Source of the DNA: Marchantia polymorpha subsp. ruderalis
Lineage: Eukaryota; Streptophyta; Marchantiopsida; Marchantiales; Marchantiaceae
Assembly (NCBI GenBank): GCA_037833965.1
Contig: AP031358.1
Location: forward strand, 18,422,001-18,486,000
Reading direction: 5' to 3'
DNA length: 64,000 nt
Shown: positions 19,406-57,804 of the stretch, in pieces
How the letters are laid out: each line of letters opens with the position of its first letter
Position numbering within the stretch: the first letter of the stretch is position 1
Position numbers and translations under genes: made by a program
Notes under the pieces: model-generated
What the model saw: the letters and a program-made list of their open reading frames with translations, nothing else
Databases searched by the model: none
Told to the model about the DNA's origin: nothing

Positions 19406-19766
19406 TAGGACCCAACTGGCGAAAAATCCCGACACTTTCCCGATCCCGACACAATCCCGATCCCGACACTGATTCTGTGGATCCTCCTTCGTCATCATCC
19501 GAAGGAAGGATTTCGGTCGCCATTGATTGCGTTGGCGACTGGCCCGAGTGGGGCTGCGTGGGGGCTGCGGGTTCTGCCGCCGATGGCGCTCCTGCAGCTT
19601 CGCTGCTCCCTGCTAAAATGTCCAAGGCGGTGGGTGAATGTGGCCGTGCCACAACCCCATCATCCGCCTGGCGTGCGTCGATCGTCACTCCTTCGCCGCC
19701 GGCGTCCGCTGCCGAAGGTGATCGAGCGAAATGTGTCTGCATGGGGTGCAATTGTGCATCGCGCAC
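19395..19766 (-). pseudogene. Low-complexity acidic/alanine-rich linker ORF of the element
   Basis: A 123-residue frame rich in Ala, Ser, Pro and acidic residues (DDDEGGSTESVSGSG) ends where the coiled-coil frame begins, one frame away. It probably formed the disordered linker between the upstream gag-like region and the coiled coil, now separated by frameshifts. I recognise no family. Confidence 0.35.
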
Positions 19767-19844
19767 TCATCTGTCCTGCGGACAGACAATCCGCTCCTCC
19801 GTTAGGTCCTGCTCCCTCAATCGGTCCTAGGCGAGGGATGCGTC

Positions 19845-31762: not shown

Positions 31763-34700
31763 ATGGACTCCGCACGAGAGGAACCGGAGCTTCCCTCCGC
31801 CATCCAGGACCTTGTCCAGCGTCTGGAAGGACAAGGCAGGCCTATAACGCAGCTTCCCTATTTAAGCGGGCCAAAATTTCGGGAGTTCTTTCCGGAGCGT
31901 GCATCACTTTCGACAATGACAGGGTGGCGAAGCCAAGTGCGCCTTCGAGTGCTGGAGGCAATCGGCAACTGCAACACCTTTGAGAGTCTGAACGTGGGAG
32001 ACATTTGTGATGACGATATATCGAGGTTGACGGCCAGCGAGTGGGAGATCGTTTTCAGAGGTTTCAGGTCAAGCACCGTTCTACAACGGATAAGTGTTGA
32101 TTGGTTAAGGGCTTCAGATGATGCGGAAATGGAGAGCTGGTGTTTAGAGCTGGGGAGATTTCTGAATTCTTCTAGAGTATCAAAATTAGAACACTGCCAG
32201 TGCAGATGGAGTGCTAGATGTTGGTCGAATCTCGCCTCAGGACTGCGAGGACCTTCCGATTCTAAACTCCAGTCTTTGAAGTTATGGAACGCGTGGGAGG
32301 ACGAGAGTGCGGTGAAGCATGTGGCTGAGATGATCAACAGTGCTCCTCTATTAGAAACGTTGTGTTTAAAGCGCTTTCAGAAGGACATGGAGGACGAGAA
32401 CGTTGGAATCCTGTCCCAGGCGTTGGTCCAGAGCTCGTCGTTGAAGGAATTGAAGTTAATGAACGTGAAGTGGGGAGGGCCCTTGTTGCTGAAAGCATTG
32501 GCCGGAGACGATCGCAACCGATCCATTGAACGTCTTCGGCTGTGGGGTATGGATGAACCCGGAGACTGTTTAAGGGAAGTTCTTATTTCCAACCCATCAT
32601 TGAAGAAAGTGGAGTTGCGCGACGTGGAGATGAGTCCTGAGGAATGTCACCAGCTCGGCGAAGTCATACGTGACAATGCTATAGCCACAACTATATATGT
32701 TAGCTTTTATGGTGATGACGACTGGAAGTCAATGGAAGCTCTTGCTAGTTCTGCTAGCTCCGATGTCAATGACCCCACACTGGAGCTTGACATAGGGATT
32801 TGGGGGAAGGAGGAAGATAAGATGAAGTTGTCATTAAACCTATTAGGTAGGGTGCTGCGCGGTGAAATCAAATCTCTCAAATCTCTGATTATACGGCAGA
32901 GTGATAAACCAATTATCACTTTCAGTATCCTCCCGATGAATGGGAAAACTGGAGAAACCTCAGTCCCGAAGAGACTGGAATTATCTGTTCGAAGCGAAGA
33001 TATTTCGAAGGGAGAATGGGAGGAGCTGCTTCGGTGCATGCGAGGGAACCACCTCACTCACTTGGATTTGTCTTTCTCCGAACTCGACGAGGAGGCGTTC
33101 AGGGACGTGATGGGAGTACTGCAAGTGAACTTGGCTCTCCAGGAAATAGACGTCTCACAAACATCGTGGGCAAAGGACGGAAAGGCGGCGCAGATTCAAC
33201 AGGCCCTGCAGCAAAACAAGGAGCGGGCTGTCTACATGTCCGTGTTCCGAGAAGCCAACTTAACATTCGGAGATGCAAAAGCTGGCCGACTCTTCTTATG
33301 CGGCTCTCCTCGAGCAGGTAAGATGCGCTGTAAATTCTCAGTTTTTTTCTGAATGTAGGCCAACTAGCAATCTATGGTTTAACTTTTCTAAAACTAAGAT
33401 TGGCACTACAAATGTTATTTTGATCTTTATATAATGATGCGTGTATACAAATAGTAATGGAAAGAAAAATAAAATCAAATGTGTAAATCACTAATTATGT
33501 AACTTCAATCATTTTGGTGATTTATACTTTTTTCAGTCGAATTTATTTTCACATATTAAAATAATATCATGTCATATTGTATCTCAAGAATATCAATTCA
33601 AAGCATTTCTGAAGATATCGGTAATAACAAGTTGTGGATTTTGTGATGTGACGTCCAGGAAAAACTCAACTGCGTAAAACCTTGATGAGGATAAATCATA
33701 GCTGGCTACACAGAAGCAGTCCATTGTTGAAATGGGAGGCATTGTGGAGGACCAAAGGAATTGAAGTGGAGTTTTTGCAAGACAATGACAAAATGCAAAT
33801 CTCAGTTTGGGATCTTGCAGGACAATGGATTTTCCGTACCCTTCAAACTGTACTTTTCCCTCAAACCAACAATTTCTGTGTTTTTCTTTTTGTGTATAGC
33901 CCTTTTTGTGAAAAAACATCCTCAATCAAACCAGAATCTTGTTTCAAAACTGAGTTGGAGGAGTGGTTGAGTTTTATTACATCTAGCACTAAGATCACAG
34001 GACGTGATCTTCCCCAAGTTATTGTAGTGATTTCTCACAAGGATAAACCCATATCCAGCTCTTTGAGTTGGGCTCATCCCATAGTGGAAGAATTGACTAA
34101 AAGATTCGCAAACTTTGTGGATCTTCGTCCTATTCAAGAGTGTTTTCATGTGGATGCTCGGAAGAAGAAGCAAGTTAGTTCTCTTAACAGATACATTTTT
34201 GAGAATTTCCACAAGTTGTTGAGAGAGAAATCCCCACAAGTTCCCGAATTGTGTTTACAACTCACGTCTCTCTTGGTTACAAACACCAAGAAGAACAAAA
34301 GTTTTCCTTTGTGGCCATCCAAAAAGTTTTATGATTTTTGTGTTTCCCATTTGAAAAAGTTCATTCCATCATCTTCTGCTCACTCTATTGAACATTCAAG
34401 GATAATAGAATCTATCATATCCTATTTGAATGATGTTGGATCCATCATTTACATCCCCAACCTTGATCACATCATTGTCGATCCCAACTGGCTCACTAAT
34501 ACCTTCTTGGGTGAGCTGATAGCTCTGGGTCAAAACTTTCAAGCTCAAGAGCCAGAGTCTTCTTATAGAATGAGCTCATACGCAAGCAAGGACGGATTTG
34601 TGAGCGAGATTGTCTTTGCTGGACTGATAGAGAAGTTTTTGGGAAAGCAACCACGCTTTCAAAATGTGGATAGAAAGGTGCTTGAAAACATTCTCATCAA

Positions 34701-36566
34701 TTTAGATTTGTGTTTCAAGCTGGAAGATAATTCTGAGTATTTCATTCCTTCCTTCATCCCTGAGCATGCAAGCAAGGAGGAACAGAATGATCAAGAAGGG
34801 GTGCACGCGATGAAGTGGAAAAATAGGAGTGAGACTTCGAAGTTTGTCGGCATTCGGATTCAATGCCAAGATGAAACAACAATGTCACTGACTGCTGCTT
34901 TTTTTCCACGCTTTCAGGTGAGGTTCAATCATGATTTCATAAACACAGTAAAAGCGTTGCAATTAGCATTTGATGAAGAGAATGTATCCTTTTCATTTAT
35001 TGTGACGAATTCTTAGAATGTCTCACTAGAGATTTACCAAATTTTCTATGATTGTAGATGTTCATGAGACGCAAGTTGATATCCAAGATGGGTGTTTCCG
35101 AGGAGAATGTGACTTGCTCTCGACATTATCTGCAACTTTTCCATGACGGGCATCGGATATATATCGAGCACGTCCAGGGTGAAAAGTCTCACAAATTTGT
35201 AGATGTTCTGATGTTATGCTCTAGTCGGAAGTCAAAGGAGGAGGCTATTACATACGTGAGGAAGCATATCGTCCAGGAGTTGATATCATTTTGCGCATCA
35301 CCAAAAGGCTGTCCCGGGGTGGCATTAGTGCTAGGTGTGATCCAAACTTTTTGCGTGGAGATGTTGATTCCAAGTCATCTCAGAAAAGCAATTCTGATCG
35401 AGAAGCTGAAATCTGACTTCATTCGTAGCATCAATGACAAACTTGAGGAAATGCCCTTGGAAAGATCACACTTGATAGAGAAAGAAAAGTTGTTGCACTT
35501 GATGAAGGAGAAAGAGTTGTTCCACTATGAGCATTGTTGGGCTCCGATTGGAATGGATACGGGCGGAATATCCGAACTAGCAAGGGATTTGTTATGGGAG
35601 AGCGATGTGGAAGCAGTTGTGAATGAGATTTGCCTGAATCAAATTCAACAATTGGAGTCATTGCAGAAAGCTATAGTTAGCGTGGACACTGATTTGGCTC
35701 AGTGTTATCCTGAAGCTGAAAACATGGTTAGCGACTCGAATCTCCCACAAATGAAAGACCTCAAACCACTCACATCCAGGTCCTTGAGTCGGGCCAGCAC
35801 AAGTGTGGAGAGTCCTTCGACCCAACTTATTGTGTTAAAGATTGAGGAGCTGGGAGAAAAGATAGTACAAAAGCTTGATGGTTTGGATGAGAGGTTAAGA
35901 TCAATGCAGAGCTCAATGGGACAAATACTCTCTGTGCAACAAGAGCTGCAATCAACTTTCAGTGTCTTCATGTCTAAGGTGGACAGGATCATTGGCTATT
36001 CGCAAGCGTTTCAGCAGGTAAAAACGCCCAAACGACCCTATGTTACGGACGATGTGGGAGAATTCTATAAGTTGAGTGCAACTCTGCATGTCGGGAGAAT
36101 TGTTCGATTACACTTGATGTGTGAGTCGGTGACTGGGTTTCACACTGTCGAAGATCAAGAAGGGTTGAAGATACGATTGGATTCGGAGAAGTGGGGGTGG
36201 ATTCGGAAAACTATTGAAATTTCATACAAAGTCATATATTATGCTGCAAAGGCTGCACTGACTAAGTTCTGCGAGTTGGGCGATGCGATTCCGGCCTGGG
36301 CAGATTTGGAATCAGATATTGTTAAACTAGATGTTAGCAGTGAAGATCGCAAGGCAGTTCTTACAGGTGGGGAAAGCCAGGAGCTGCAAGAAGCATGGTT
36401 GAGGATTAAGCAAATTCTTGCGCCTGAGCTTCAAAATCGCTATTCCAAAATCTTCAAGTTGTATCAGGTGAAGTACGTGAGTTTAGAAAAAGGTGGGCAT
36501 GCATGGGTATGCGAGAAGTGCATGAATAAAGGCCTTCGTAGTGGAAGTTTGACAGTGGAAGTTTGA
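31763..36566 (+). CDS. TRN1-like: TORNADO1-like LRR-Roc-COR (ROCO family) protein, copy a
   Basis: Three exons, 31763-33317, 33659-34917 and 35058-36566, with GT-AG introns, join to 1440 residues. The start is the ATG of MDSAREEPEL, shared with copy b; the open frame before it is not conserved. Residues up to about 505 form ribonuclease-inhibitor-type LRRs. The Roc GTPase follows: P-loop GSPRAGKT (514-521), switch DLAGQ (570-574) and SHKDK (644-648) at the guanine-specificity position. COR includes IIVDPNWLTNTFLGEL (near 790) and ends at FFPRFQ, the exon 2/3 junction. Exon 3 carries the TRN1-type C-terminal region (FVDVLMLCSS, FHYEHCWAPIG, LARDLL), a coiled coil (about 1190-1260) and a terminal HAWVCEKCMNKG. 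Arabidopsis TORNADO1, a patterning protein of about 1380 residues, has the same order. An intron splits the P-loop codons. All parts are intact, so it is probably functional; whether it does TRN1's job is open. Confidence 0.92.
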
Positions 36567-38650
36567 CATATTAGAATTTAGAAGAGGTTAGAATGCCACT
36601 ATGCAATTGGCAAGCATATGTTTAGACCCTCATGCAATATACAACTCTGCAAATTATTCTTTGCAGCTTTCACAAGGAAATAGTCTCCTATAATTTTTGC
36701 CATATGTCAATCTCACAGTTATGTTTCTGAAGAAGATCAGTGTTTGGCTAAACTATGAAGATGACTTTTTGAGGGTAGAGTGTTCATATTGTCTCGTTTC
36801 AAGTCTCACTATGATGAAAACCCTTCCGTTGACACGTGAGAGTGGTCATGTTGAACTTCCACACATATTCGTGACTGATTCTTATGTCCCACGATGAAGG
36901 TCCGACAAATGTATGATGGACCGGAACTAGAAACTAATAAGTGTTATCATTTTCAAGTAGTATCCGTGTTTAAACAAGAGAGCAATATAGGCTGAAGAGA
37001 ATCCTTTTGCAAGAATTCATGCACAATATCCAATCTGTGAAGCTCAGAAATTTGTAGCTCATGTGAATCTTCTTCTGTCACTTCTTTGTATGATCAGAAG
37101 TTTTCACAAGATTTCTTAGGAGGCCTAACTCCAGTTCGAATGCATCTTACCGGTAAAACAAAACCTGTGCACAGATTTCTCTCCTGTGATATATTGTTGA
37201 GGTGTTATCAGAGTTTTTCATTCGGTATTCTTTGTGCGACATCGTGATAACATGCTTTTTCATAGCGGGATTCTCAGCGCATTTTAAATCGCCAGCACGC
37301 TCAGAACTGTCACGTGTGTGTTTTTGCATTCGACGTTTGGTCGAATAATGTTTTTGCCATTTTTTTATAAATGTGGTACTTTCGAAGCACAAATGCTTTT
37401 GCAATTGGACTGCGTGTGGACGTTGAGTTAAGGAGAATCTTTACAGCATAAATTCTCTAAGTATGCACGACCTCGTGCAGCAGAGCATGCAGAATGGTGA
37501 TCAAAGATGACATAGTCAGTCTGTCATCTTAGCTGTCTGTTATCCGACTCTGTCATCTTTGATCACCATTGCCATCTCCGTCTATGTTCTGAACACAATC
37601 ATTATTTTCTATGGAGCATCTGCGTCTGTACGCAGTTCGAGGAATATTGCCGAAGTTTTGAGTTCGACTCACTCAACCAGGTTTTAACCTCTGACCCTTA
37701 CTAGAACTCTAATTTACAATCTTATGTGATTCACCCAAAGCCTCAGTTCATCATTTACAAACACTTGGGCGAAGAATTTCCATTTGATGCCGACCGTTCA
37801 CATTTTGCCTGCTCCGGGTTACAGTCAATCTACAGCTGATGCTGTGCGTTGTTTGCAAGACGCGGACAAACCTCTCAGTGGAATTTCCTTCAAAACCCCT
37901 CTATGATTCGCTAGTTCCAGAACCAAGGACATTTGTAGGAATTTTCAATTATTCTTAAGCTTGATTACTTCCGTAGTCTGTTGTTCTCAAACTAAAGTGT
38001 ATCCCCATAATTATAACCATCCGATACAATGAGTTGTTTTTTCCATATAACACGTCCAATTGATCCATGAAGAGATGGTTCTTACCATATACTGGAGCTC
38101 TGTTCGGGGCATTAACCCAAGGAAAGTATGAAAGTCTGATACCAAAAAGATACATGTTATAAGAGTGAAATTCTTAGAAATCTTACTATCTGCAGTCAAT
38201 CTCAATAGTTACAGAAAGTGACATAATACAATGTACATATAATACTGGAAAATAGCAATCTTACGACATCATGGTTTCTCTGGTTCCACAAAGTCCAATC
38301 AAACCTTCACTACCAAGGGAGCTCTCGCGGCAGGAACGAGAAGAACTGTCAATCACGATGCACGATGAGGGCATTCTCTTACACACAATGAGCCGCCGAT
38401 TTCTTCCATCTCCACTCGATGCGAGGTAGTGGAGGATCGATCTTTCAACTCTACGCGATAAACGCGAAGCAGATCTGATGGTCATCGAACCTCTCTCACA
38501 CTCGCACACCACTCACTCATCGGTCGCGTCAGAAGCCGTCCAGGAATCTCCCACTCGCACACTGGCAGCCCATCTGCGGGCACTGGGCTGCTTCTCGACC
38601 ATCCCCGCGTCCGTGACCCTCTAAATTACATTATTTTGCCATTATAACTC
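36567..38650. repeat. Downstream block of TORNADO1-like gene a
   Basis: 36567-37440 is colinear with 57805-58670. From about 37190 it also matches 46170-46370, and 37513-38650 matches 47180-48450. It holds the 3' region of gene a. A piece reading HPKPQFIIYKHLGEEFPFDA (near 37733) looks protein-like in both copies but meets stops, so a decayed gene may be embedded. No intact gene is visible. Confidence 0.75.
37493..37570. repeat. 20-bp perfect inverted repeat around a 38-base loop
   Basis: AATGGTGATCAAAGATGACA at 37493-37512 is the exact inverse of 37551-37570. The homologous site at 47180-47245 has only the right arm, so the left arm is an addition. Confidence 0.9.
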
Positions 38651-40348
38651 GTCACCCGGTTAGGTTTAAATAATTCTACGTGGCTAAAACTGAATATTTG
38701 TCAAGGCGCCAAGTAAATGGAAAAATATTTCAAGTTCATTCAATATTCACCAAACCAACATTTGTTCCTGTTCATTAAGCACACAAAAGAGATTCAGTTT
38801 GGTTGATTCCACTCTTTATGTTTTGATGTCACTTTTCATAAATATTACACAACCCTAATGACGGGCCGAAGATTATACCACGATGTACTATTGTTAAGAT
38901 TATCGTATATGTATATGTGGGTTTACAACTTGTATTATTATTTTTATGTAGAATTGAGTTGGAGCGTGGTTCAAGATTGGGGAGTTCTAAACTCAATATC
39001 GTTGCTCAGAATGACACTGAGAGAAGATATAACAAATTAAGCGAATATATAGTACCTGGCGTACGAGAAAAATCATGTGCAAGTGATCCATCTAAATGGA
39101 TACTGCATTCTGAACACAAAAATATGACCAATTGTCCAGATTAAATGACCAGAGAATTGTACCAGTCCACAATCAAATCTACATTCCCATTGACAAATTT
39201 CCTAACGAGAGATCCATCTGACATTGGGCAGAAGGTGAAGAACAAACACATCGACTGTTCGAGAGAATGTCCATCTGAAATTTAAGCTAACACAGGAGAG
39301 ATATGAGGTGAACTAAAACGTGCATACATGACGTAAATCATAAGGCAAGTGATGAAGTAAATAACCTGTGAAAGCCAACGATTAGAGCGAGAACCTACAC
39401 AAAATATTGCATGTGAACATGTCCACATCAGTTTCAGTATTTCTAGAATAATCTTACTTACTTGAATCCCTTATCTAAATAAGGACAGCTTTCATAACAT
39501 ATAGAACCAATAGAAACAGTTAGGCCTGACACAATTATAGAAGAGAATCACACACTGACTGGAAAAGAAAATCGCGTTTGCAACATTCAGTTTTTGCTCT
39601 TTTTCTCATCTCAGCTGCAATCATTCAACATCATCTTCGAAACTGCACAGAGGATGAACAAGGAAAGAAACGGATCCCAATAAGATCGTGTGAATGTCGC
39701 TCTCTCTTTTGAGCAAAAATAATTGGGGTATGAGGATGAATGTGGTGTGAAAATCACAGCCACGGACTAAAGAATAATCGGCATCAAGCATACCTTCACC
39801 GTAGAACTCACAACTCATTTTTCGTTTACAGCCCCGCTAACAAACCATTCCAGGTCGACTGCCTCCTCACTAGACCTCGACAACCGGGACAAAGTCGATA
39901 AAACTGTGGTAGATCCATTTCCAACGTTAGGCATCTTCAAGACGGCCTGGAATGCTGGATGATTGTCGTCGCAGCAAAGCTTCCGCTCAGTCGATCTCGG
40001 TGACAGTCTTGTTCCTAATAATATCCTTGAGTTGCATTGAAAGGACCCCTCTTAGCTATATCAGCGTTGACGACCTAAATCTAAACCGAAGGTAGCATAT
40101 AGAAGCAATTGAGTCCTAACACAGAAGATATATGCTCCGTTCATTTTCGCTGGACAGTAGCCATCTGAGCTCAAAGTGAACGCAACGATGAGGTGCATGA
40201 GACAATTGTAAATTGTACAATTTAAGGACGGAGCATTACGCTATACCACCCCTACTTAAAGCGACAGAAAAAGCATCTGGCGCCCGCTTGACCTCTTACG
40301 GCCTCTGCAGTGTAGGAAAAATGATCAGCTCCTTTGAGGTTGTTTCCA
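38651..40348. other. 3' flank of the DUF707 gene, no other gene seen
   Basis: The sequence is of mixed composition. The part nearest 40348 probably contains the DUF707 3' untranslated region. Short frames at 38858-39144 (plus) and 39621-39818 (minus) have no domain or splice support. Confidence 0.5.
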
Positions 40349-43300
40349 TTACCCTGTCCTATTCGGTCCTCTGGCTTTATTTCTCGAGGCTTTCTTGGCT
40401 TGCTTTGCCGACGGATCAACAGGAGCAAATCTGCGCCAACAAGAAATAATTGGATTAGATCTCCCGTAAGGATGTTGTTGAACAATTACTTTTAGCAATT
40501 ACTATCATATCATGCTTTCATTTCTAGCCGATAATATGTGGAGGACAAATATAAATCACCTTCCATCTGGCTTGGTTTCAACAGCGTAATGGTTTTCTTC
40601 GGACGGAAGCTCTACTTTGAATGGATCCATCCATTCTGGATCGCTTGCAGCTGCTCTTCTCCATCGTCGTGAGAACGCTTGCAACTCAACATTAGATCTA
40701 TTTCTAATCTGCAGGCCAGAATTGACAATCGAATGCCTCCATCAGAGATGTCCGTACAAGACATCAAAACAATACAGAACGAGGAACAGAAGTCAGAAAG
40801 TCAAAACTGACCTCTCCTCGAGTGTCCACAGCGTCGGGATCCTGTAAAACAACAAGAGCGGGGAGTATGAAATATTAGCGCCACTCGAGAGGAACCATCT
40901 CATGCATGGTTTACAAAGGCATTAGCTCAAAGGACAACCCCCTCCGGAACATGGTTCGCCTGCGGAAGATATTCCAACATGCTGAAGTGGCCTTTAAGAT
41001 CACTGGTTTTGTCTGGCTTACGTAGTACATTTCTTGGCTTGTGTGCACTCATTCTCTAGTCCATAAGTTCTCCTCGGCATAGACAGTCCTGTACCTTCAG
41101 GCTTCCTGAACAAACGGTCCTGTCTGTAGCTCCTTGGGAGACAGAAGCTCAGGAGATCTAAGAGTAAAGCGGAATCTTCTCAGGTTTGCAGGTACTCAGA
41201 CAGTACTGCCATTTATGCAATGTGGTCTAAAACCAAACTCGAGATGCGTTCGATTTCTAGTTAGTAGTCAATGTATATACTAAGATATGGAGTAAAAGTC
41301 CCTGACCTTGCTTTCTCAGTCATACTCCTTGCTCCATAAAATACCTCGATCCCTCTACTCAGGACACACTAGAGATCTGACCCATAGGGATGTAGGCACT
41401 TGGTTCGACCCCGGTTTTCTCTTGTGGTATTACTAGCCAATCTCAGAGGTCAGGAGAAAAGGTTACACCAGTCTTAGACTTCAAATACTCCAACCTCGTC
41501 GTATCTTTGAGAATGAGACAAATAGCGGCAAGATGCTTGCTAGCAAATTCAGCTCATTTCACAAACCACCTCCGGTTGGTTCGATTTACTTCTTCGAAGT
41601 ATCTGATATGAAACCTTCTGGGATAATTCCTTTCTTTGCTCTGGATCTTCATTCGGTACAACATAGGAATGTCAAGATACGACGCTCACTATATCATCTT
41701 TACTCATCATTCCATGTCACTAACAGGGATCGAACTTAACGTAAAACGGAGAATCACATTGAGAAGACCTCCACACAGGCTGGCACATGGTGACCAACAA
41801 CAACGAATACATCGGGATATATTCGTTGTATATCAATGTGTGTTTCATAATGAAGTGTCCTCAAAATAGTCTCTCCCTTTCATCACTGGATCAATAAATA
41901 GCAGATGGAAGCACTTGAGGATCAAGGTCATTTCGAGGCCCTCTCAATCAACCGTTATCTCGTTTTACTCAAGAAACGAGATCATTGTCTTCCTTACATA
42001 AGGCATATGGAGTGCTGAATAGAAAACATTGTCAAGATCACGATTGAAGATTACAGACCGCCTGAATCAAAATGCATGTTCTTGTGGGGCTGCTACTTGC
42101 ACACTTTGTATCAAACTGCTGACTAAGTTCCGACCCATTCTTAGAGAAAGTCCAATAAATAAAATCTAAACCTGAATTTAAATAAAATCTTCTGAGCGAA
42201 AGGTTCTCAGGCCCAGGAAAAAGGAAAGTCTCGACCGCAGACATGTAGAAACATACCAGGAGGCTAGCGTCAAGCACGTTAGCAGTCCTCAGATTTGTTT
42301 GACTCTCTGCAGTCTGTCACAGATTCCAAGTTGAGTGCGCTACAGGTTTAGATTACCTTGGGCAAAAAGTAGGGCTTGTCACTTAAAGTCGAAATCCTAG
42401 TCAGACCGATCACTGAATCGTTCTAACTTCCATACTCTTGAAACTGCAATCATCAAAAAGTTACTGGAGCAAAGCGTGATTTCCATCGCCGACAAAAAAT
42501 TGCACAAGAACTTCATCCTCACAAGCATACCTTGTCATGAGGTTGACCTCCCAAGGAGGGAATGCCTTCGTGAACAATATATTCACTGTCGATGATACCC
42601 ACTTTCTCACTGCGAACTCCCTTAAAAATGAAAATAAAGATTATGAGTGCCATTATGGAGACCTGTGATATAGTTCTAAAATCATTTCACGACTAGATAG
42701 CAAATTAATCATGATCGCTACTCGATCACTCACATCTCTATTCGAGAAGATAGAATGCCACTTCTTGCAGAGTTTACCAAAAACCCACACCCATCATATA
42801 TATTTAAAAAAAGCAGTTGATACCAAGGGGTTCAGAGATGTACCTGGGCACAGTAACCAAGCTTGTAGTCTAGACCCCAGGCATGAACTAAGTCATTCTG
42901 CTCAGCAAAAAGTGAAGTCAAATTCAGGCCACGGAAAGGAGCTGCGCGAAAAATAAACTGAACCCGAACAGCAACCATAGTCTAAACCAGATGTAAAGAG
43001 TTCAGAGATTGAATTGGAATACACATGAGAAATATTCAACAGACGATATATGAGAGCTAGTGTGCTTTGAGGACGAAGTGGTATATTCGATTTTAACAAA
43101 ATAGGTGACTGGCAACAGTTCATGGTTTTCCCTTAAGCAGGTTGGACAAATCTCCACACCGCTCTTGATGATAACAAAGAACTAGTATTTTTATCACCGT
43201 GTCGTTGCAGTCAGCCTCTTATGATCAACAACCGGTAGGTTTCTTCCAAAGTTCACAAGTAGGTTTGTCTTCAGCTCCAGCATAAAAAGGGCTGCTTCAA

Positions 43301-45777: not shown

Positions 45778-46169
45778 CTGCAAGCAGATAATCTTCATCA
45801 TGCGTTTGGGTAGAAGTCCTAATGTTAAGTCAGATCTTCCGGACGAGAAACAAAGGACTTCCTGAAAATTAATGTGCTCATAGGTAACTCAGAAAGACGC
45901 GAAACTGCCCGCTACTCAAATTAGAAATAAGGTGCAAAAAACCGAAGCTCAAGGTACAAACTGGGTTCATCAGATGAAGCTCCTCTCATCCACCACACCT
46001 TGCAGAACCTACTGAATAGCAAGGTTCTATTGTGACAAAAACAGGATAAACACGGTTGAGTCCCATAGTGTTCCGAAATCAAATGATCAGAGGGTGCAGC
46101 ACTGGCTTATAAAAGTGTCGCTTTATATTCTAACTGAGGTAAGTCTTACGTTTCCGGCAAGGACTGGGC
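45778..46169. other. Region upstream of the DUF707 exons
   Basis: The missing first exon(s) of the minus-strand DUF707 gene should lie here or further right, but no frame shows a start codon followed by a convincing membrane anchor and a matching donor. Confidence 0.35.
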
Positions 46170-48450
46170 GATTATTAGAGATTTTCGTTTGGTATTCTTG
46201 GTGCGACATCGTGATAACATGCTGTTTCATAGCGGGGTTCTCAGCGCATTTTAAATCGCCAGCACGCTCAGAACTGTCACGTGTATAAATGTGGTACTAT
46301 CGAAGCACGAATGCTTTTGCAATTCGACTGCGTGTGGACGTTGAGTTCAAGAGAATCTTTACGTGGAGCATAAATTGTGGATGTGTTATGAGAGTTTTCC
46401 CTTCCGTATTCTTCACGCTACAAATAACATGCTTCACGCTATTCCGTATTCTTCACGCTACCTGGTAACATGCTTGTGCTGGCAGTGATCTCAGCACATT
46501 TCAAATCACTAGCACGGTCAGAACTGTCACGTGTATAATGAATATGGTGGCACCAAATCTCTTGCTATTGGACTGTGCGTGGACTTTTAGCTACAGAGAC
46601 TCTTCACGTCTAGAACAAAACTCGCTCACCCAAATAGTCTTCCGATATCAGAGACAATAACGATCATAGTCATGGCGATGAGATGAAAGGAGAAAAATAT
46701 CAATAATCTATTTCATACGGTCAATCCACATAATTTATACCTTTTTAAAATAGGCCAGAAAGCTTCCTTCCAATACTTCACATCAACCTCAATCAACTTG
46801 AGCTAGATCCAGAGCTTCACTGCAATGTACAATTAGTTTGCCGAACCAGATCTCGGATGTCTTCATGCTCCGACGTCACGTCATGCAGTGTTCAAGATGC
46901 GCAGGCGTGGACTTTCCTAATCTGTACTTTAAAACACGAGTCGGGCATTGCAGCGGCAGTCCCTTGAAGAGATGAACCCCGCCGCGCGGACGACTTTGTC
47001 AAATGTTGGTCCTGTGATTGAGGTTGAGGATGATGCAGAGTTTGTGAAACTTTGCTTTCTTATACTCGAAAATTATTCTAATTATCGGCGGGCCTGGCAA
47101 CTTCGCACAGGTCTGCAGAAACGGCAGCAGACGCGTTTCTGGTGGCGGGATTGGTGATGCTATGAGCTTTTATCTGGTGAATAGTCAGTCTGTCACCTTA
47201 GCTGTCTGTTATCCGACTCTGTCATCTTTGATCACCACTGCCATCTCCGTCTACGTTCTGAACACAATCATTATTTTCTATGGAGCATCTGCGTCTGTCC
47301 GCAGTTCGAGGAATATTGCGGAAGATTTGAGTTCGACTCACTCAAACAGGTTTTAACCTGTGACCCTTACTATAACTCTAATTTACAATCTTATGTGGTT
47401 CATCCAAAGCCTCAGTTCATCATTTACAAAGACTTGGGTGAATAATTTCCATTTTATGCCGACCGTCCACATTTTGCCTGCTCCGGGTTACAGGCAATCT
47501 ACAGCTGATGCTGCGCGTTGTTTGCCAGACGCTGACAAACCACTCAGTGAAGGTTTCCTTCAAGAAAGACATTTGCAGCCTCTCCGTCATATTGATGGAA
47601 TTTTGCATCGGAAATCGCTGCCACCGCAGTTTCTCGAAAACAGCAATCTTACTACATCATGGTGTCTCTGGTCTCAGAAAGGGCAATCAAAGCTCACTCA
47701 CAGGGAAGAGAAAACAGCAATCTTACTACATCATGGTGTCTCTGGTCTCAGAAAGGGCAATCAAAGCTCACTCACAGGGAAGAGCGAAGCTTCAGGGTAG
47801 AGCATGAAAGACATTTGCAGCAGGAGATGAGAGTTTTACAGCTGCCACAAGTCTTCCATTGTCAGCGTGCTTCAGTATTCTCAGGTCTTCGGTCACATGG
47901 GTCCTGACACGGCCTTGAATTTGTCCTGAGAAACTGCGCATAAATGACCAGAGATTTGCAAAACACACAGAGACTGAAGAGGTGCAGCCTCTCCGTGATA
48001 TTGATGGAATTATGCATCGGAAATCGCTGCCACCGCAGTTTCTCGAAAACAGCAATCTTACGACATAATGGTGTCTCTGGTTTCAGAAAGGGCAATCAAA
48101 CCTTCGCTACCAAGGGAGCTCTCGCAGCAGGACCGAGAGGAATTGTCAATCACAAACAGTGAGGGGTATGCACAATGAGGCCCTTCTGTTCCACAGAAGC
48201 CACCGATTTCTTCCATTTCCATTCGCCGCGAGTTAATGGAGGATCGATCTTTCAACTCTACGCGATAAACGCGAAGCAGATATGAACCTCTCGCACACTC
48301 GCACACCATTCACTCATCGGTGGCGTCAGAAGCCGTCCAGGAATCTCCCACTCGCACATTGGCAGCCCATCTGCGGGCACTGGGCTGCTTCTCGACCATC
48401 CCCTGGTGCGTGAGTTCGTCAGGCGAAGCCTGTAATCTACATTATTTTGG
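46170..48450. repeat. Orphan downstream block of a lost TORNADO1-like unit
   Basis: 46170-46370 matches the flank of gene a at 37190-37440. 46380-47050 matches the flank of gene b at 58470-59100. 47180-48450 matches 37513-38650. No TORNADO1-like coding sequence precedes it. Frames such as 46948-47157 and 47162-47356 (the latter with a hydrophobic stretch) are not intact in the related copies. Confidence 0.75.
47636..47784. repeat. Two tandem copies of a 74-bp unit
   Basis: The unit starting GAAAACAGCAATCTTACTAC at 47636 repeats at 47710. A diverged third copy lies at about 48046 with its own left flank (47574-47635 recurs at 47987-48045), and a fourth relative is at 38245. Long frames across this area are products of the duplication. 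Confidence 0.9.
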
Positions 48451-49619
48451 CATTATAGCTGCGGGAACAGTTAGAATCCAATAATAATACATGAATAGAA
48501 CAGAGTATCTGTTAAGCGTGAAGTAACATATCTACCATCTTTCTGCTTGTGAGTTAAGAAATAGAGTTAATGAAAATAACACATAGACAATTCATGTGTT
48601 TATTTGCCGTCCCATCAATCCAAAACTAATGTAATGCATAGTGAAATAAGATTTCATCTCATTGGTTTAAGAGTCAATGAGTATTTCTTTGTGTTCATGA
48701 TCTAACAGATTTCATTGAGATTGATGGAGCTGACTTGAAATGTGTGTTAAGTGAATTAGCTGGTGCAGTCACAACTATGTTGATTTTTTAATATTTGGGA
48801 GTATGATATGTTTCATGTTTGACACCTCTTTTGAACAAAATGTCTAGTAGGCAATAGTAATGTACTCGTACCAATTAACCAGGTGGACTTTTGTGACAAT
48901 GTGAATTGCAGTTATAAGACTGAAAAAGTATAATTATAGCTCGGGATGTCCTTATCTTAAACCCAATAATATCAAATTATGTTATGGATAAGATCTCTGC
49001 TTAGTTTAAGAGTGATCTAAGCTCCAATTGGAAGCTGTTGCTCTACAATTGTATTTATGATAATATGTGCCTGTTATGTTTCACGTGCATGAGCAAGATA
49101 GATTAGGTGGCCTTCCCTGTAGAGTAGCAGACAAATTAGGTGGATTAACTTGTACATTCAATATACATCTTGTGCATAAATCATTCCGAATAACACTTTC
49201 TCGGGTGATTCATTGACTCCACATTACCCCATGCAGAGTAATAAGAAATTATGGTTAGATTGCAGCAATCTTGAGCGTTCAATGGACGAGGCTATTGCTT
49301 TTGTCACGGACATGATCAACGAAATTGTCGTTTGCACAGTTGTAAATAGAATTATAAACAAGAACAATGATGGACTTAACCATGTTAAATTTTTTTCTTA
49401 ATTGGATTGAAGAATCACTATTATCTAGCATTTAGCATCAGAATTATTTCTGAAGTCATGTATACCGCACAGTTTCCCTTGATTTGCAAGCAACTTGGAA
49501 AAAATGTTTCTTGAGAGGTTTGACGTTGAGCTCAGCAAGTATCATGCTGGTTCTATCAACTTCTATAAAACGCGATAAACAAGCAAGAGTGCTCGTAGCT
49601 TGGACGAAATTCGATATTA
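48451..49619. other. Intergenic spacer, no gene seen
   Basis: Moderately AT-rich unique sequence between two decayed unit pieces. Short frames such as 49213-49401 have no support. Confidence 0.6.
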
Positions 49620-50190
49620 ATTTCATGTTTGAGGTGTAGAGGACTCGAGACTCTGGAAACTAGAACTGTGCATGAGCTCACATGCTTGACAGTTGAGCTA
49701 GAAGAAAAATCATATCAGCAATCGAGAACCTCGATTGTGCTTCTACTCTGTTCAAAGTTATTCGAGATTATGTTTAGTAAACTTCCAGATAGCTTACCAG
49801 TTTGTTCCGAACCTACAAGTATGTAAAGTTATAAAGACTCCTGTACCGATATTTAAAGAAAAGAGAAAGCACAAGAGGCATTGTCAACCAGGCCTACAGC
49901 GCATGTGCCACTGAGTTGTCAGAATCATCCACTTTCTTGCATAGATTAAAATAGAAGATGAACTTTGACATGTTTGTTGTCAGGTGATGACATGGAGTGT
50001 ATCATCACACTGATGCATTCAGTGTATCCTGTTGGTTGAAAGTCAAGATCTACTTGACTTTCTAACACCATTGTCCAATCGCAGAGTAGGGAGGAGCAGG
50101 CTTTTTGAGATAGAATATTGTCGCTCCCTTGATCCTCACACTTTTCAATGACGAGATCCGATTGAAGATGTGCATGCTCTTTCCCCACTT
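49620..50190. repeat. Diverged upstream fragment of a lost TORNADO1-like unit
   Basis: It is recognisably related to 30560-31115 and 51385-51945 (shared phrases such as ACTTGACAG, CTCGA, TCAAGATCTACT and GATTGAAGATG), but much more diverged than those two are from each other. It stops at TTTCCCCAC, where the full upstream block of gene b begins. Confidence 0.65.
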
Positions 50191-50499
50191 TTAGATATGA
50201 ATGTGATTTTAATCAAATAAATAATGTGAAATACAAATAACCTAACGTTATTTGTTTGACAATCAAATAAACCATCATCACCACTAACAATAATGACTTT
50301 GCTTGCAAAAGTTTCTTGAAAGATTGCTCTCAATGTTTAGAAACAACAAATAATTCAAACAAAAATATCAATTTCACTTTTAATGTTTGTATCATTTGAG
50401 TTCTAAAACATCATGATTTTTCTTTCGAAATGAATTTCGACTAAAATATTAATTACCATGTAGTTTACATCCAGAAATACTTTTTTACAAAAAAAATTA

Positions 50500-50504
<5 letters not shown>

Positions 50505-50535
<31 letters not shown>
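50505..50535. repeat. TA microsatellite
   Basis: An uninterrupted TA run of about 31 bases. The equivalent site near 29677 in the other block has only a short TATATA, so it expanded (or contracted) after duplication. Confidence 0.95.
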
Positions 50536-50538
<3 letters not shown>

Positions 50539-51731
50539 ATTGAGAACTAATTTATGATGTCCATATATATTATCCTAATCCAAATTTTCATTAATTACAC
50601 TAAATATAAGATAAAAATATGAATTAAAACATAGATATATTTCTTTTCAAGAATTGTTCATATTTTTCAATTTTTTTTTCAACATTTTAATCAATTATAG
50701 ATCAAAACAATTAAGCACAAAACGTTTAGTGAACAAAATGTATATGATGAAATTTAAGCTATCATATAAAATTTGAATATATATATGATATACTAATTGC
50801 AAGCATCTTTATTGATGTGTTTTTCAAAAAAAAAAACCTTCACACTATGCAACTTCAAATTTCTGAGTCAATAATTTGAATTTGAAAGATTAATTTGTCT
50901 TTTAAATGAAACTTTCTGCAATGCAATCAGAAATGTACTATTCGGATTTATACTGAAAAATGCTCTCATTCTCACTCACATCCCTAAATCCAAAATCTTC
51001 ATGTATAAAAAAAAGAAAAAAATATAAATTCTCTAATATTTATTTGAAAATTTATATTTTATTATTTTATTTAAATTAATAAAAAATTGTTTTCATTATA
51101 ATAATATAATTTAAATGCACGAAAATATTGAAATGTATGATTAACTATCTAAAAAAGCAATATTTGGCAACATATCATTCATTCACAAAATCAACATATT
51201 TAGCTTATTCATATTTGCATTGTTTTACAATTAGAAAATTGGATCCATTGCAGGAGGGATACGTTGAAATCGTGAAGGCCATGCTTAAAGTGACCAGGCT
51301 GTCATCTTAGCAGCACGAATTCATCATGCGATCTCTGTATTCACAGTCATTCATTTTGGCTTTGCAAACTCACCAAAAAAAAAGACCTCCAAACTTCTGC
51401 ATGCATTCACATACTTGACACAGCTGGGGTAGAAGAACAATCGTACCAGCAGTTGATAACCTCGAGTACTGGTATCCTCTGTACACAGTTCTTCGATACC
51501 ATAGTTAGTAAAATCCCAAAAAGCTTGTCAGTTTTTTCTGATACTAAAAGTTATTTACAATTATCTACACAACTGTTCTGGGTCAAAAGTAAGAAAAAAC
51601 TCAACATGCTTATTACAGCTGACTACTCATGTGCCACTCAGCTGTCAGAATAGGTCCACTTGCTCGAACTGATCGAACATGCCAGATAAATGGATTAATA
51701 AAGAAGAAAGTTGTAATGGAAGTTGTCAACG

Positions 51732-51739
51732 TGACGTCA
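51732..51739. promoter_or_regulatory. TGACGTCA palindrome upstream of gene b
   Basis: Same motif and relative place as 30909-30916 before gene a; a possible TGA/bZIP binding site. Confidence 0.35.
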
Positions 51740-52567
51740 TAGAGAATATTATCACACTGACGCATTCACCCACGTTTCCTCTCCGCTTGCACAACAAAGT
51801 CAAGATCTACTCTGACCTTCTAACACCATGTTCCAATCACAGAGTATGAAAGAACACGATTTTTGTGTTCCAATGTTGTCATTGCCTTGATCGCTCAGAA
51901 GATTCAATGAGAAGATCTGATTGAAGAGGATGCATACTTTTTCCCCATGCTAGCCATCGTAGTGTCTGTCTTCCCGTTGGTATTGATGCAGCTAGATTCG
52001 CAGTCTCCCAGTACAACTGTAGATTCAGTTTTTCCACAACCCAGAGTTCGTCACATCTGAGAAATCTATGACATTTTGCTTTCCCATCGCGCCATCTTTG
52101 CTGAGAACTTGATTTCAGGTACTTTTGCAGAGCTATAATCTTGTCCACTCACTTCGATCACTAGTGCACATCGAACCCTGATAGACGTGAAGTCTTTTTT
52201 GCCACACGGGTCTACGATTTAGCTTGGTACTAGAATCCTGGTCTTCTCTGTCAATTTTGATTCCCATTTCTTGTCCTCCTGCTTCCACTTTGTACAATCT
52301 CCCTGCATTCGTGGTGATTGCTCATGATCCGCGTATCGGCAGATCTCAGAGTGATATTTTTGTTGCTACTTGTGCGCAGTGCAAGAGAATTTATGCCCAG
52401 CAGGCTCACGCAGACGAATTGTGACACTACGAAGGGAAGATCAGTTTTCTTCGGGAGAGCCGGGCTTTCGGATTGAAGAGAGGGCCTCCTGTACGCGCTG
52501 AAGGAGAGAGCAGGAGAGAAAGGAAGGGGCAGGTGCGTCCATCGTCAGTCACGCTCCTGAACGGGAA

Positions 52568-55500
52568 ATGGACTCCGCACACGAGGAACCGGAGCTTCCC
52601 TCCGCCATCCAGGACCTTCTACAGCGACTGGAAGGACAACGCGAGCCTTTAACGGAGCTTCCCAATTTAAGCTGGCGCGCTCCGGAGTTCTTTCCGGAGC
52701 GTGCATCACTTTCGACAATGACAGGGTGGCGAAGCCAAGTGCGCCATCGAGTGCTGGAGGCAATCGGCAACTGCAACACCTTTGAGAGTCTGAACGTGGG
52801 AGACATTTGTGGGAGAGATATATCGAGGTTGACGGCAAGCGAGTGGGAGATCGTTTTCAGAGGTTTCTGGTCAAGCACCGTTCTAAATGGAATATACCTT
52901 TATGATTTGAAATGGAGTTCAGATGCGGAAGTGGAGACCTTGTGCTTAGAGCTGGGGAGAATTCTGAATTCCTCTAGCGTACCAACATTAGTGCTGAGTG
53001 ATTGCAGATTGAGTGCCAGATGTTGGTCGAATCTCGCCTCAGGACTGCGAGGACATTCCGATTCTAAACTCCAGTCTTTGATTGTATGGGACGCGTCGGA
53101 GGACGAGAGTGCGGTGAAGCATGTGGCTGAGATGATCAACAGTGCTCCTCTATTAGAAACGTTGGAATTAGAGGACTTTCGGGAGGACATGGAGGACGAG
53201 AACGTTGGAATCCTGTCCCAGGCGTTGATCCAGAGCTCGTCGTTGAAGGTATTGGTCCTGAGAGGCCAGGTGAAGTGGGGAGGGCCCTTGTTGCTGAAAG
53301 CATTGGCCGGAGACAATCGCAACCGATCCATTGAACGTCTTCGGCTATCGTCTATAAAGGGAGTAGGAGACAATCGCAACCGATCCATTGAACGTCTTCG
53401 GCTATCGTCTATAAAGGGAGTAGGAGACTGTTTAAGGGAAATTCTTATTTCCAACCGATCATTGAAGAAAGTGGAGTTGTCCGACTTGCAGATGAGTCCT
53501 GAGGAATGGCACCAGCTCGGCGAAGTCATACGTGACAATGCTATAGCGACAACTATACTTGTTTGGTTTCGATTGGGGAATGATGACTGGAAGTCAATAG
53601 AAGCTCTTGCTCGTTCTGCTAGCTCCGAAGTCAACGACCCCACACTGGAGCTTGTACTCCATCAGGGAGTGAAAGATGATCTGATGTTATCATTAAACCT
53701 ATTAGGGAGGGTGCTGCGCGGTGAAATCAAATCTTTAAAATCTCTGAGTGTGTTGAGGAAGGGTGGAAAAATCTTCACTTTCAGTATCCTCCCGATGAAT
53801 GGGAAAACTGGAGAAACCTCAGTCCAGAATAGACTAGAATTATCTGTTCGAAGCGAATATCTTTCAAAGGGAGTATGGGAGGAGCTGCTTCGGTGCATGC
53901 GAGGGAACCACCTCACTCACTTGGATTTGTGTCACTCCAGACTCGACCAGGAGGCGTTCAGGGACGTGATGGGAGTACTGCAAGTGAACTCGGCTCTCAT
54001 CAAGGACCCCACACTGGAGCTTGACCTCCAAGCACGGAGTGAAGATGAAGTGATGTTATCATTAAACCTGTTAGGGAGGGTGCTGCGCGGTGAAATCCAA
54101 TCTCTAAAATCTTTGAGTGTGTTGAGGCATGGTGGAAAAATCTTCACTTTCAGTATCCTCCCGATGAATGGGAAAACTGGAGAAACCTCAGTCAAGAAGA
54201 GATTGGAATTATCTGTTCGAAGTGAAGATCTTTCGAAGGGAGTATGGGAGGAGCTGCTTCGGTGCATGCGAGGGAACCACCTCACTCACTTGGATTTGTC
54301 TGACTCCGAACTCGACGAGGAGGCGTTCAGGGACGTGATGGGGGTCCTGCAGGTGAACTTGGCTCTCCAGGAAATCGACGTCTCACGAACATCGTGGGCA
54401 ACGGACGGAAAGGCGGCGCTGATTCAAGACGCCCTGCAGCAGAACAAGGAGCGGGCCATCTACATGTCCGTGTTCCGAGAAGCCAACTTAACATTCGGAG
54501 ATGCAAACGCTGGCCGACTCTTCTTATGCGGCTCTCCTCGAGCAGGTAAGATGAACTGTAAATTCTCAGTTTTTTCCTGAATGTAGGCCAACTAGCAATC
54601 TATGGTTTAACTTTTCTAAAACTAAGATTGGCACTACAAATGTTATTTTGATCTATATATAATGATGCGTTTATACAAATAGTAACAGAAAGAAAAAAAA
54701 AATCAAATCTGTAAATCACTAATTATGTAACTTCAATCATTTTGGTGATTTATAATTTTTTCAGTCGAATTTATTTTCACATATTAAAATAATATCATGT
54801 CATATTGTATCTCAAGAATATTAATTCAAAGCATTTGTGAAGATATCATTAATAACAAATTCTGTATTTTGTGATTTGACGTCCAGGAAAAACTCAATTG
54901 CGTAAAACTTTGATGAGGATAAATCATAGCTGGCTACACGGAAGCAATATGTTCAGTAGATGGGAGGTATTGTGGAGGACCAAAGGGATTGAAGTGGAGT
55001 TTTTGCCAAAAAATGACGAAATGCAAATCTCAGTTTGGGATCTTGCAGGACAATGGATTTTTCGTACCCTTCAAACTGTACTTTTCCCTCAAACCAGCAA
55101 TTTCTGTGTTTTTCTTTTTGTGTATAGCCCCTTCTGTGAGGAAAAATCTTCAAAGAAACCAGACGCTTGTTTTGAAACTGAGTTGGAGGATTGGTTGAGT
55201 TTCTTCACATCTAGCATTAGGGTCACTGGACGTGACCTTCCCCAAGTTTTTGTTGTCATTTCACACAAGGACAAAGCCATATATAGCTCTGTGAGTTGGG
55301 CTCAGTCAATAGTTGAAAAACTCACCCAAAGATTCGCAAATTATGTGGATCTCCGCCCTATTCAAGAGTGTTTTCATGTGGATGCTAGGAAGAAGAAGCA
55401 AGTTAGCTCTCTTAACAGACACATTTTTGAGAATTTCCACAAGTTGTTGAGTGAGAAATCCCCACAGGTTCCCAAATTGTGTTTACAACTCACCTCTCTC

Positions 55501-57804
55501 TTGGTTACAAACACCAAGAAGAACAAAAGTTTTCCTTTGTGGTCATCCAAAAAGTTTTATGATTTTTGTGTTTCCGATTTGAAAAAATTTATTCCATCTT
55601 CTTCTGCTCACTCTGTTGAACATTCAAGGATAATGCAATCTATCATATCCTATTTGAATGATGTTGGATCCATCATTTACATCCCCAACCTTGATTACAT
55701 TATTGTCGATCCCAACTGGCTCACTAATACCTTCTTGGGTGAGCTAATAGCTCTGGGTCAAAAATTTCAAGCTCAAGAGCCAGAGTCTTGTTATAGAATG
55801 AGCTCATACGCAAGCAAGGACGGATTTGTGAGTGAGAGTGTCTTTGTTCGGTTGATAGAAAAGTTTCTGGGAAATCAATCACATGGACAGAGAGGTGTGA
55901 ATAGAGAGGAGCTTGAAAACATACTTGTCAATTTAGATTTGTGTTTCAAGCTCAAAGATACTTCTCAGTATTTCATTCCTTCCTTCATCCCGGAGCATGC
56001 AAGCAAGGAAGAACAGAAGCATGAAGAAGGGGCACATGTGGACTCAATGTTTTGGGATAATATGAGTGAGACTTCACAGTTTGTCGGCATTCGGATTCAG
56101 TGCCAAGATGAAATAACAATGTCCCTGACTGCTGCTTTTTTTCCACGCTTCCAGGTGAGGTTCAATCATGAATTCATAAACTCAGTGAAAACATTGTATG
56201 TGCCCAGTTCTAATTGTAATTAGCGTATGATGAAGCAAATGTTTTCTTTTCATCAATTGTGACAAATTATTTGAATGTCTCACTAGAGATTTACCAAATT
56301 TCTATGATTGTAGATGTTCATGAGACGCAAGTTGATATCCGAGGAGATGGGTGGTTTTGAGGAGAATGTTATCTGCTCTCGACATTATTTGCGACTTTTC
56401 CTTGACGGGCATCAAATATATATCGAGCACATTCAGAGTGAAAAGTCCCACAAATACATAGATGTTCTGATGTTATGCTCCAGTCAGAAGTCAAAGGAGG
56501 CAGCTATTACATATGTGAGGAAGCATATCGTCCAAGAGTTGATATCATTTTGCGCATCATCAAAAGGCTGTCCAGGGGTGGCGTTAGTGCTCGGTGTGAT
56601 CCAGACTTTTTGCGTGGAGAGGCTGATTCCGAGTCGTCTTAGAAAAGTCATTCTGATCGAGACCCTGAAATCGGACTTCATTCGTAGCATCAATGGCAAA
56701 CTTGAGGAAATGCCGTTGGAAAAGTCGTACTTGATGGAGAAGGAAGAGTTGTTTCACTATGAGCACTGTTGGCCTCCGATTGGGAAAGACACCGGCCGAA
56801 TATCTGAACTAGCAAGGGATTTGTTGTGGGAGAGCGATGTGGAAGCAGTTGTGAATGAGATTCACCAGAATCGAATTCAACAATTGGAGTCATTGGAAGA
56901 AGGTATAATTAGCGTGGATAATGGTTTGGCTCAATGTTATCCTGAAGCTGAAAAGATGGTTAGCGGCTCCGATGCCCCCCAAATGAAAGACCTCAAAACA
57001 CTCTCATCCAGGTTCTTGAGTAGATCCAGCACAAGTGTGGAGAATCGTTCGACTCGACTAATTTTGTTTGGGATTGAGCAACTAAAAGGAGAGGTTCAGG
57101 GTTTGCATAGAAAGGTTGATGATTTGCATGATGCTATGCAAAGAGTGGACAGGAAAATGGAACACATACTCTCTGTGCACCAAGAACTGCAGTCAAAGTT
57201 GAGTGTCTTCATGTCTAAGGTGGACAGGAGCATTGGCTATTCGCAAGTGTTTCAGCAGGGGAAAACGCCCAAACGACCTTACGTTACGGATGATGTGGGA
57301 CATTTCCATAGGTTGAGTGCAGGTCTGCATGTCGGGAAAATTGTTCGACTTCACTTGATGTGTGAGTCGATGACTGGGTTTCACACTGTCAAAGATCAAG
57401 AAGGGTTGAAGTTACGATTGGATTTGGAGAAGTGGGAGTGGATTCGGAGAACTATTGAAATTTCATACAAAGTCATATATTATGGCGCAAAGGCTGCACT
57501 GACTAAGTTCTGCGGGTTGGGCGAAGCGATTCCGGCCTGGGCAGATTTGGAATCGGATATTGTTAAACTGGATGATATTAGCAGTGAAGATCGCAGGGCA
57601 GTTCTAACAGGTGGGGATAGCAAGGAGCTGCAAGAAGCATGGTTGAGGATTCAGCAAATTCTTGCGCCTGAGCTTGAAAATTGCTATTCCAAAATCTTCA
57701 AGTTGTATCAGGTGAAGTACGTGAGTTTAAAAAAAGGTGGGCATGCATGGGTGTGCGAGGAGTGCATGAATAAAGGCCTGCGTTGTGGAATTTTGACATG
57801 TTAG
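52568..57804 (+). CDS. TRN1-like: TORNADO1-like LRR-Roc-COR (ROCO family) protein, copy b, with expanded LRRs
   Basis: Exons 52568-54545, 54887-56154 and 56314-57804 use the same three splice positions and phases as copy a and join to 1578 residues. The start ATG (MDSAHEEPEL) follows a non-conserved leader. The extra length is mostly in the LRR region: a 57-bp tandem duplication (19 residues, RNRSIERLRLSS twice) and a 369-bp one (123 residues). The Roc P-loop GSPRAGKT (655-662), DLAGQ (711-715) and SHKDK are kept, as are the COR motif IVDPNWLTNTFLGEL, the coiled coil and the C-terminal HAWVCEECMNKG. LRR beta-strand residues differ strongly from copy a, whereas the framework, introns and GTPase core are close. 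All frames are open, so both copies appear functional. As in copy a, COR is followed by the TRN1-specific C-terminal region and there is no kinase domain, unlike LRRK proteins. Confidence 0.92.
53309..53422 (+). repeat. In-frame 57-bp tandem duplication in gene b LRRs
   Basis: The 57-base unit starting GGAGACAATCGCAACCGATC at 53309 is repeated exactly from 53366. Copy a has one unit. Confidence 0.95.
53636..54365 (+). repeat. In-frame 369-bp tandem duplication in gene b LRRs
   Basis: A unit beginning GACCCCACACTGGAGCTTG at 53636 recurs at 54005, 369 bases (123 codons) later. Within it, LNLLGRVLRGEI, FTFSILPMNGKTGETS and LLRCMRGNHLTHLDL are the same in both copies, while beta-strand residues differ. 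Copy a has one unit. Confidence 0.95.

Follow-up and report, generated by a model that had tools for sequence, protein, structure and literature searches.

Receptors of the nucleotide-binding leucine-rich repeat type (NLRs) in plants and animals carry a variable leucine-rich repeat (LRR) domain on a nucleotide-binding switch, lie in tandem arrays and exchange sequence between copies. The closest published precedent for the genes described here is a set of brown-algal LRR-ROCO proteins, which PMC11378527 discusses as candidate immune receptors under diversifying selection; Zambounis et al. (2012) on brown-algal ROCO is cited here through PMC11378527 and PMC4104024. According to the former, four brown algae hold 111 ROCO genes, 9–47 per species, in which every LRR has its own exon and the concave face carries positively selected sites. 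We analyzed a 64,000-nucleotide stretch of the Marchantia polymorpha subsp. ruderalis genome (contig 9, positions 18,422,001–18,486,000; hereafter the window) that contains two intact three-exon LRR-Roc-COR genes, gene A (1440 aa) and gene B (1578 aa). These genes and their relatives combine a diversifying LRR surface with a conserved GTPase chassis, and sequence is exchanged from copy to copy. A and B probably represent a large, fast-evolving family of LRR-Roc-COR GTPases, likely cytosolic, that would act as NLR-like recognition receptors; we infer both the recognition-receptor role and its target. Variable partners, possibly microbial molecules, would bind to the concave side of an LRR horseshoe of the ribonuclease-inhibitor type, and binding would be passed on to the conserved Roc-COR switch and the C-terminus, with GTP switching as the putative carrier of the signal.

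Diversifying LRR-ROCO candidate receptors are not new in general, as they have already been published for brown algae. The brown-algal genes share with the liverwort family the LRR-Roc-COR architecture, family enlargement, positive selection on the concave LRR face, the shuffling of LRR units and, there as a proposal, an immune role. They differ in that each algal LRR is a 72-nt exon of its own and these exons are shuffled, whereas the liverwort LRR part, of the ribonuclease-inhibitor type with repeats of ~28 residues, lies in one exon and either short tracts or the whole exon are exchanged; the liverwort copy number, at least 99 Roc-COR exons, compares with the 9–47 algal genes per species. 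With NLRs the family shares the variable LRR on a switch, the arrays and the exchange, and the LRR fold of A exon 1 matches NLRP chains; it differs in having a Roc GTPase plus COR rather than NB-ARC or NACHT (neither gave a Pfam match in A or B) and an N-terminal instead of a C-terminal LRR. A reading of the window made from its letters (the sequence-only reading) had suggested that the lineage may have made a variable family of recognition receptors out of the LRR-Roc-COR design, and knew of no description of this. The latter stands for land plants as far as the open-licence literature goes, where no description was found among the papers listed, which is not proof of absence, but not for the design as such, given the algal case. 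PMC11378527 does not name Marchantia in its text, PMC4104024 ascribes ROCO genes to flowering plants only, and the passages matched in PMC12890914 mention LRR and NLR but not Roc. If the liverwort genes are receptors, brown algae and liverworts would each have recruited the LRR-Roc-COR design for recognition on their own, and since Marchantia is a tractable haploid plant, the question of variable ROCO immune receptors would be directly testable.

Surface diversification in a large family

In A, fourteen xxLxLxx motifs were marked, giving 70 exposed and 28 buried residues; the exposed set followed from the motif and was fixed before the AlphaFold2 (AF2) model was made, but after the consensus and entropy profile had been viewed, and one register (LELDIGI) was assigned by eye. 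The AF2 model of A exon 1 (predicted local distance difference test score, pLDDT, 86.4) places strands where the motifs had been marked, and its best PDB matches by E-value are ribonuclease inhibitor and NLRP chains, with TM-scores of just 0.3–0.6. Between A and B, 50.6 of 146.1 nonsynonymous changes fall into 69 exposed codons of the 515 compared (permutation p = 5e-5), with no significant clustering of synonymous changes (p = 0.21). Nonsynonymous (dN) and synonymous (dS) divergence amount to 0.394 and 0.202 at exposed codons (dN/dS, or omega, 1.95), 0.108 and 0.363 at buried leucines (0.30), and 0.099 and 0.104 in the rest of exon 1 (0.95), the last class including variable loops and an N-terminal patch. 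For this pair alone, exposed nonsynonymous changes are not in significant excess over exposed synonymous ones (Fisher p = 0.083), but they are over the pooled synonymous changes of exon 1 (p = 6e-7). Exons 2 and 3 of the pair have an omega of 0.35 and 0.48, and among 293 and 346 pairs, respectively, none exceeds 1.

The family behind this pair is large. With B exon 1 as query, its own genome (241 Mb) returned at least 126 matches (67 of 502 candidates scored), and B exon 2 yielded a minimum of 99 Roc-COR exons, from the 99 scored among 308 candidates; 91 of them contain no stop. The Roc-COR exons are spread over contigs 2 to 9, with 15 at 18.41–18.84 Mb of contig 9 and a further array at 16.8–18.25 Mb of contig 5; we refer to contigs 5 and 9 as chromosomes 4 and 8, a naming inferred from protein names. 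Forty loci were read out of the 67 scored for exon 1. In all 40, exon 1 is open through to the P-loop and the GT donor, and in these as in A and B the LRR is confined to one exon; all three exons passed by script in 29, an exon 2 or 3 frame is shortened in six (L033, L042, L044, L045, L047 and L048), and for the remaining five the motif patterns gave no full exon set. Ten near-identical copies were merged, leaving 30 distinct ones. Four copies (L014–L017; contig 9, 18.56–18.63 Mb) are spaced by exactly 21,765 bases with exon 1 99.95–100% identical, either a very recent amplification or a matter of assembly. In L040 and L043–L045 the open frame extends upstream of the start codon with further LRR-like sequence up to the edge of the fetched stretch, which could mean longer LRR domains or fused neighbours.

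Fifteen disjoint closest pairs, together spanning the 30 distinct copies, repeat the A–B pattern: pN/pS is 1.67 at exposed codons (confidence interval, CI, 1.30–2.15), 0.30 at buried leucines (0.14–0.56) and 0.92 in the rest of exon 1 (0.79–1.05). Along xxLxLxx the ratio runs 0.60, 1.15, 0.14 (L), 1.35 (x3), 0.39 (L), 2.73 (x5) and 2.31 (x6). Exposed omega exceeds 1 in 13 of the 15 pairs, and exposed dN exceeds that of the rest in 14. Site models were run with our own numpy code rather than PAML (coarse optimisation, 5–6 beta categories, FastTree trees) on two clades from different chromosomes, one of 10 copies on chromosome 8 and one of 12 on chromosome 4. For exon 1, M8 improved on M7 by a doubled log-likelihood difference (2dlnL) of 410 and 443, respectively, with 57 sites at P>0.95 in the first clade, including 32/69 exposed, and 42 in the second, including 18/68; about 13% of exon-1 codons were placed at omega 7–8 in both, and only 3 of 219 helix residues reached P>0.95 in each. 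Fitting separate trees to 16 blocks, one per repeat, left 2dlnL at 238 and 293 with 46 and 33 sites. The two clades have 23 selected sites in common with a single tree and 18 with block trees. A second selected patch lies at about residues 30–46, ahead of the first repeat. For exon 2 (Roc-COR), M8 found no site in either clade (p = 0.19 and 0.22). Thus, the clustering of changes at xxLxLxx that the sequence-only reading had described from a few peptide pairs (all present, beside quoted helices that are identical between A and B) recurs across the family, exposed dN/dS does not fall to 1 or below overall, and divergence over exon 1 does not even out once more copies are aligned.

Relaxed constraint in a swollen and decaying gene family might account for the shortened frames in 6 of the 40 loci, for the stops in 8 of the 99 Roc-COR exons and for a ratio near 1 in the rest of exon 1. 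It predicts, however, an omega of ~1 throughout, against exposed values above 1, buried leucines at 0.30 and the low ratios of exons 2 and 3. We give this explanation next to no credence: relaxed selection and pseudogenes were rejected because Roc-COR and the buried leucines are constrained and the frames open.

Several observations weigh against surface diversification as a general property of the copies, or against the strength of its measurement. The pair L036/L041 has an exposed omega of 1.00 and L027/L028 one of 0.41; exposed omega exceeds that of the rest in 11 of the 15 pairs and does not in 4. Silent divergence is somewhat higher at exposed codons (median ratio 1.4–2.2 by dS bin). Exon 3 has a weak M8 signal (p = 0.003 and 0.0002; 1 and 4 sites), and recombination, to which site models are sensitive, occurs in the data. 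Between accessions, 4g13541 has no LRR difference between Tak-1 and Tak-2, gene A is nearly unchanged in P0001, and the exon 1–2 protein of L041 is identical to P0083 of the other accession. As an observation of its own, L027/L028 (contig 9, ~5 Mb) is a copy pair without surface diversification that perhaps has a different role.

Ten Tak-1/Tak-2 pairs were compared, the tenth (P0005/P0001) not being same-numbered. In seven same-numbered pairs, exposed residues differ by 41–55%, the other LRR residues by 9–14% and Roc-COR by 1–5%; the C-terminal part differs by 1–2% in five of them and by 9% and 20% in two. 2g21700 has diverged evenly (exposed 25%, Roc-COR 28%). The choice of pairs is biased towards divergent ones because the database merges proteins above 90% identity, and we do not claim allelism, since exons 2–3 of paralogues within the chromosome 8 group may resemble each other as closely as those of same-numbered pairs. 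The partners of the same diversifying surface might instead be molecules of other liverworts (self/non-self at fertilisation or thallus contact) or of genomic parasites. A compatibility system would likewise agree with the strongly different surfaces seen in 7 of the 10 comparisons, and nothing measured points to microbes. We nevertheless regard such partners as unlikely: compatibility systems usually need few loci, in contrast to at least 99 Roc-COR exons on eight contigs, and the published relatives are discussed as immune candidates (PMC11378527), both of which are indirect arguments.

Exchange between copies

The copies trade both strand segments and complete LRR exons; this, like the size of the family, the sequence-only reading had missed. 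Over 1977 bases, B (fetched as L011) and L013 have 48 differences, of which 43 lie within five tracts. At every tract one or both versions recur in another sampled copy, and at four of the five this holds for a copy besides L014, whose match to L013 extends across 515 bases. L036 and L041 are ~0.3% different over 6.5 kb, but have 43 differences within 600 bases at strands 1–4. In one such island, a run of 96 residues is identical between L041 and P0046, a different gene whose exon 2 is otherwise distant from that of L041 (15/415 shared 8-mers). P0083 was dismissed as an independent donor of the island by its match to L041 throughout exons 1 and 2, and is therefore the counterpart of L041 in the other accession. 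On a larger scale, L030 and L031 are identical throughout exons 2 and 3, yet 134 of the 1557 bases of exon 1 are different, as is the 5' flank, and the boundary lies close to the end of exon 1; here, one 3' half is common to genes whose LRR exons are distinct. Neighbouring sites show more compatibility than permuted ones in each of the two clades (0 of 1000 permutations as low).

Exchange does not explain everything. Strand peptides recur in another copy in 205 of 417 cases, helix 8-mers in 367 of 417. Of 407 strand blocks, 214 are at least 4 bases away from their nearest copy, and a near-exact match in a distant sampled copy exists for only 29 of these 214, which counts against pure shuffling; the rest must come from selected point changes or from unread donors, the donors being under-sampled because only 40 loci were read. 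The scarcity of matches is also what a mutator or a programmed templated process on the LRR exon, comparable to antibody gene conversion, might leave behind, making the pattern partly mutational. In line with this, the two codons after xxLxL vary near-freely between identical flanks (one or two codons do so at strands 4 and 7), codons at x5/x6 differ at two or three bases in 129 of 397 compared, and islands of divergence such as that of L036/L041 lie within near-identical genes. On the other hand, codon positions 1 and 2 change more than position 3 (0.39, 0.35 and 0.24), transitions make up 0.39 at x5/x6 codons and in helices alike, and divergence at strict fourfold sites close to strands shows no significant increase (47/723 vs 77/1478, or 0.065 vs 0.052; p = 0.13). 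We thus do not prefer local hypermutation and give this explanation very little credence.

Taken with selection on the surface, these exchanges allow a wider and more tentative proposal, namely that Marchantia and Riccia have, beside NLRs, another large system for recognition inside the cell, with Roc-COR GTPases as its base. The LRR exon would serve there as an exchangeable cartridge, and strand-sized segments or whole exons would move among at least 100 tandem and dispersed copies. If so, genes with identical signalling halves would carry different binding faces.

Relatives in liverworts and TORNADO1

Relatives among the protein matches listed come from M. paleacea, Riccia fluitans and R. 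sorocarpa. Expressed as the fraction of residues that differ at exposed versus other LRR positions, divergence is 0.63/0.32 in M. polymorpha (4 proteins), 0.64/0.16 in M. paleacea (3) and 0.46/0.15 in an R. fluitans cluster (8), compared with 0.19/0.31 in a single-copy-like group (3) and 0.35/0.33 in angiosperm TORNADO1 (7); five R. sorocarpa proteins (0.89/0.70) are very divergent and give little information. The surface excess therefore recurs in M. paleacea and R. fluitans and is absent from the single-copy-like relative and TORNADO1, so that the contrast with a conserved gene drawn by the sequence-only reading is borne out. Its designation of A and B as TORNADO1-like, in contrast, had to be given up. 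TORNADO1 does not appear among the matches listed for the Roc-COR query (117 proteins, E<=1e-3). A tree built from 31 Roc-COR rows resolves three separate supported clades, namely the Marchantia expansion, the Riccia cluster and the single-copy-like group, and places angiosperm TORNADO1 far off on a long branch, separated from the family with full support; the program warns of long branches that meet. By their sequences, A and B are not close to TORNADO1, and the Marchantia and Riccia expansions look independent.

TORNADO1 is likewise an LRR-Roc-COR protein of ~1400 aa and is homologous to the wider liverwort group (P0131 as query finds it at E ~1e-61, 27%), but it forms a distant branch, has no surface excess, and contains a COR-B that Pfam recognises in TORNADO1 P0192 and not in A or B. 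The single-copy-like group (MPTK1_5g17320, which is P0131, and Riccia P0174 and P0175) has the architecture and length of the expanded family and is related to it, yet its surface is more conserved than its remaining LRR.

Structure and surroundings of genes A and B

The exon coordinates are collected below; the ATG of A and the last base of the stop codon of B lie exactly where the sequence-only reading had put them, and its by-eye count of 18 differences in the 341 bases of intron 1 is correct. The introns of both genes are of the GT-AG type, and neither reading frame is interrupted by a stop. A frame break at intron 2 of B was discarded, as the donor CAG|GTGAGG, common to A and B, keeps both frames intact. 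The longer LRR exon of B also owes length to a 19-aa tandem duplication.

Coordinates of related features in the window (positions of the whole stretch)
Feature	Positions	Strand	Content
Gene A exon 1	31763..33317	+	N-terminal segment, 14 marked LRR strands, start of P-loop
Gene A exon 2	33659..34917	+	Roc, COR-A; Pfam scores under curated cut-off
Gene A exon 3	35058..36566	+	Remaining COR region, coiled segment, C-terminal region with GGHAWVC end
Gene B exon 1	52568..54545	+	LRR exon, extended relative to A by duplication of internal repeats
Gene B internal duplication	53672..54340	+	Two copies 369 nt apart; single in A (32813-33112)
Gene B exon 2	54887..56154	+	Roc, COR-A
Gene B exon 3	56314..57804	+	C-terminal part
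Isolated 3' end fragment of a related gene	15692..15785	-	91% identity to A across 94 nt

The domain order in both proteins is LRR, Roc, COR-A and C-terminal region. Roc (Pfam E 5.8e-5 in A and 5.3e-4 in B) and the COR-A that follows it (4.5e-7 and 6.7e-7) score under the curated cut-off, which Roc exceeds in the relatives P0012, P0013, P0131 and P0141. P-loop and DLAGQ are intact in A and B, and in the relatives the P-loop pattern was counted in 58/60, DLAGQ in 57/60 and HKDK in 47/60. Judged by these motifs and matches, A and B would be ROCO proteins, with a Roc carrying GTP-binding motifs followed by a COR domain. Neither has a hydrophobic N-terminus (in A, the 19-mer of highest hydrophobicity averages 1.9 and begins at residue 1024), and a cytosolic location is likely. 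The AF2 model of exon 3 was poor (mean pLDDT 54) and was not used.

A search of viral contigs gave no match. Positions 18000–22000 of the window are GC-rich (0.56–0.59) with many overlapping frames, and neither of two frames tested had a Pfam match. A Kelch-repeat gene with overlapping frames lies on the minus strand at 10457–11493. Positions 1–4083 and 59913–63999, ~4.1 kb each, are 99.4% identical and partly very AT-rich (GC 0.21); they are probably the flank of a segmental duplication, because the gene that precedes the window on its upstream side, L009, is 96.7% identical to B in a match to its 3' half.

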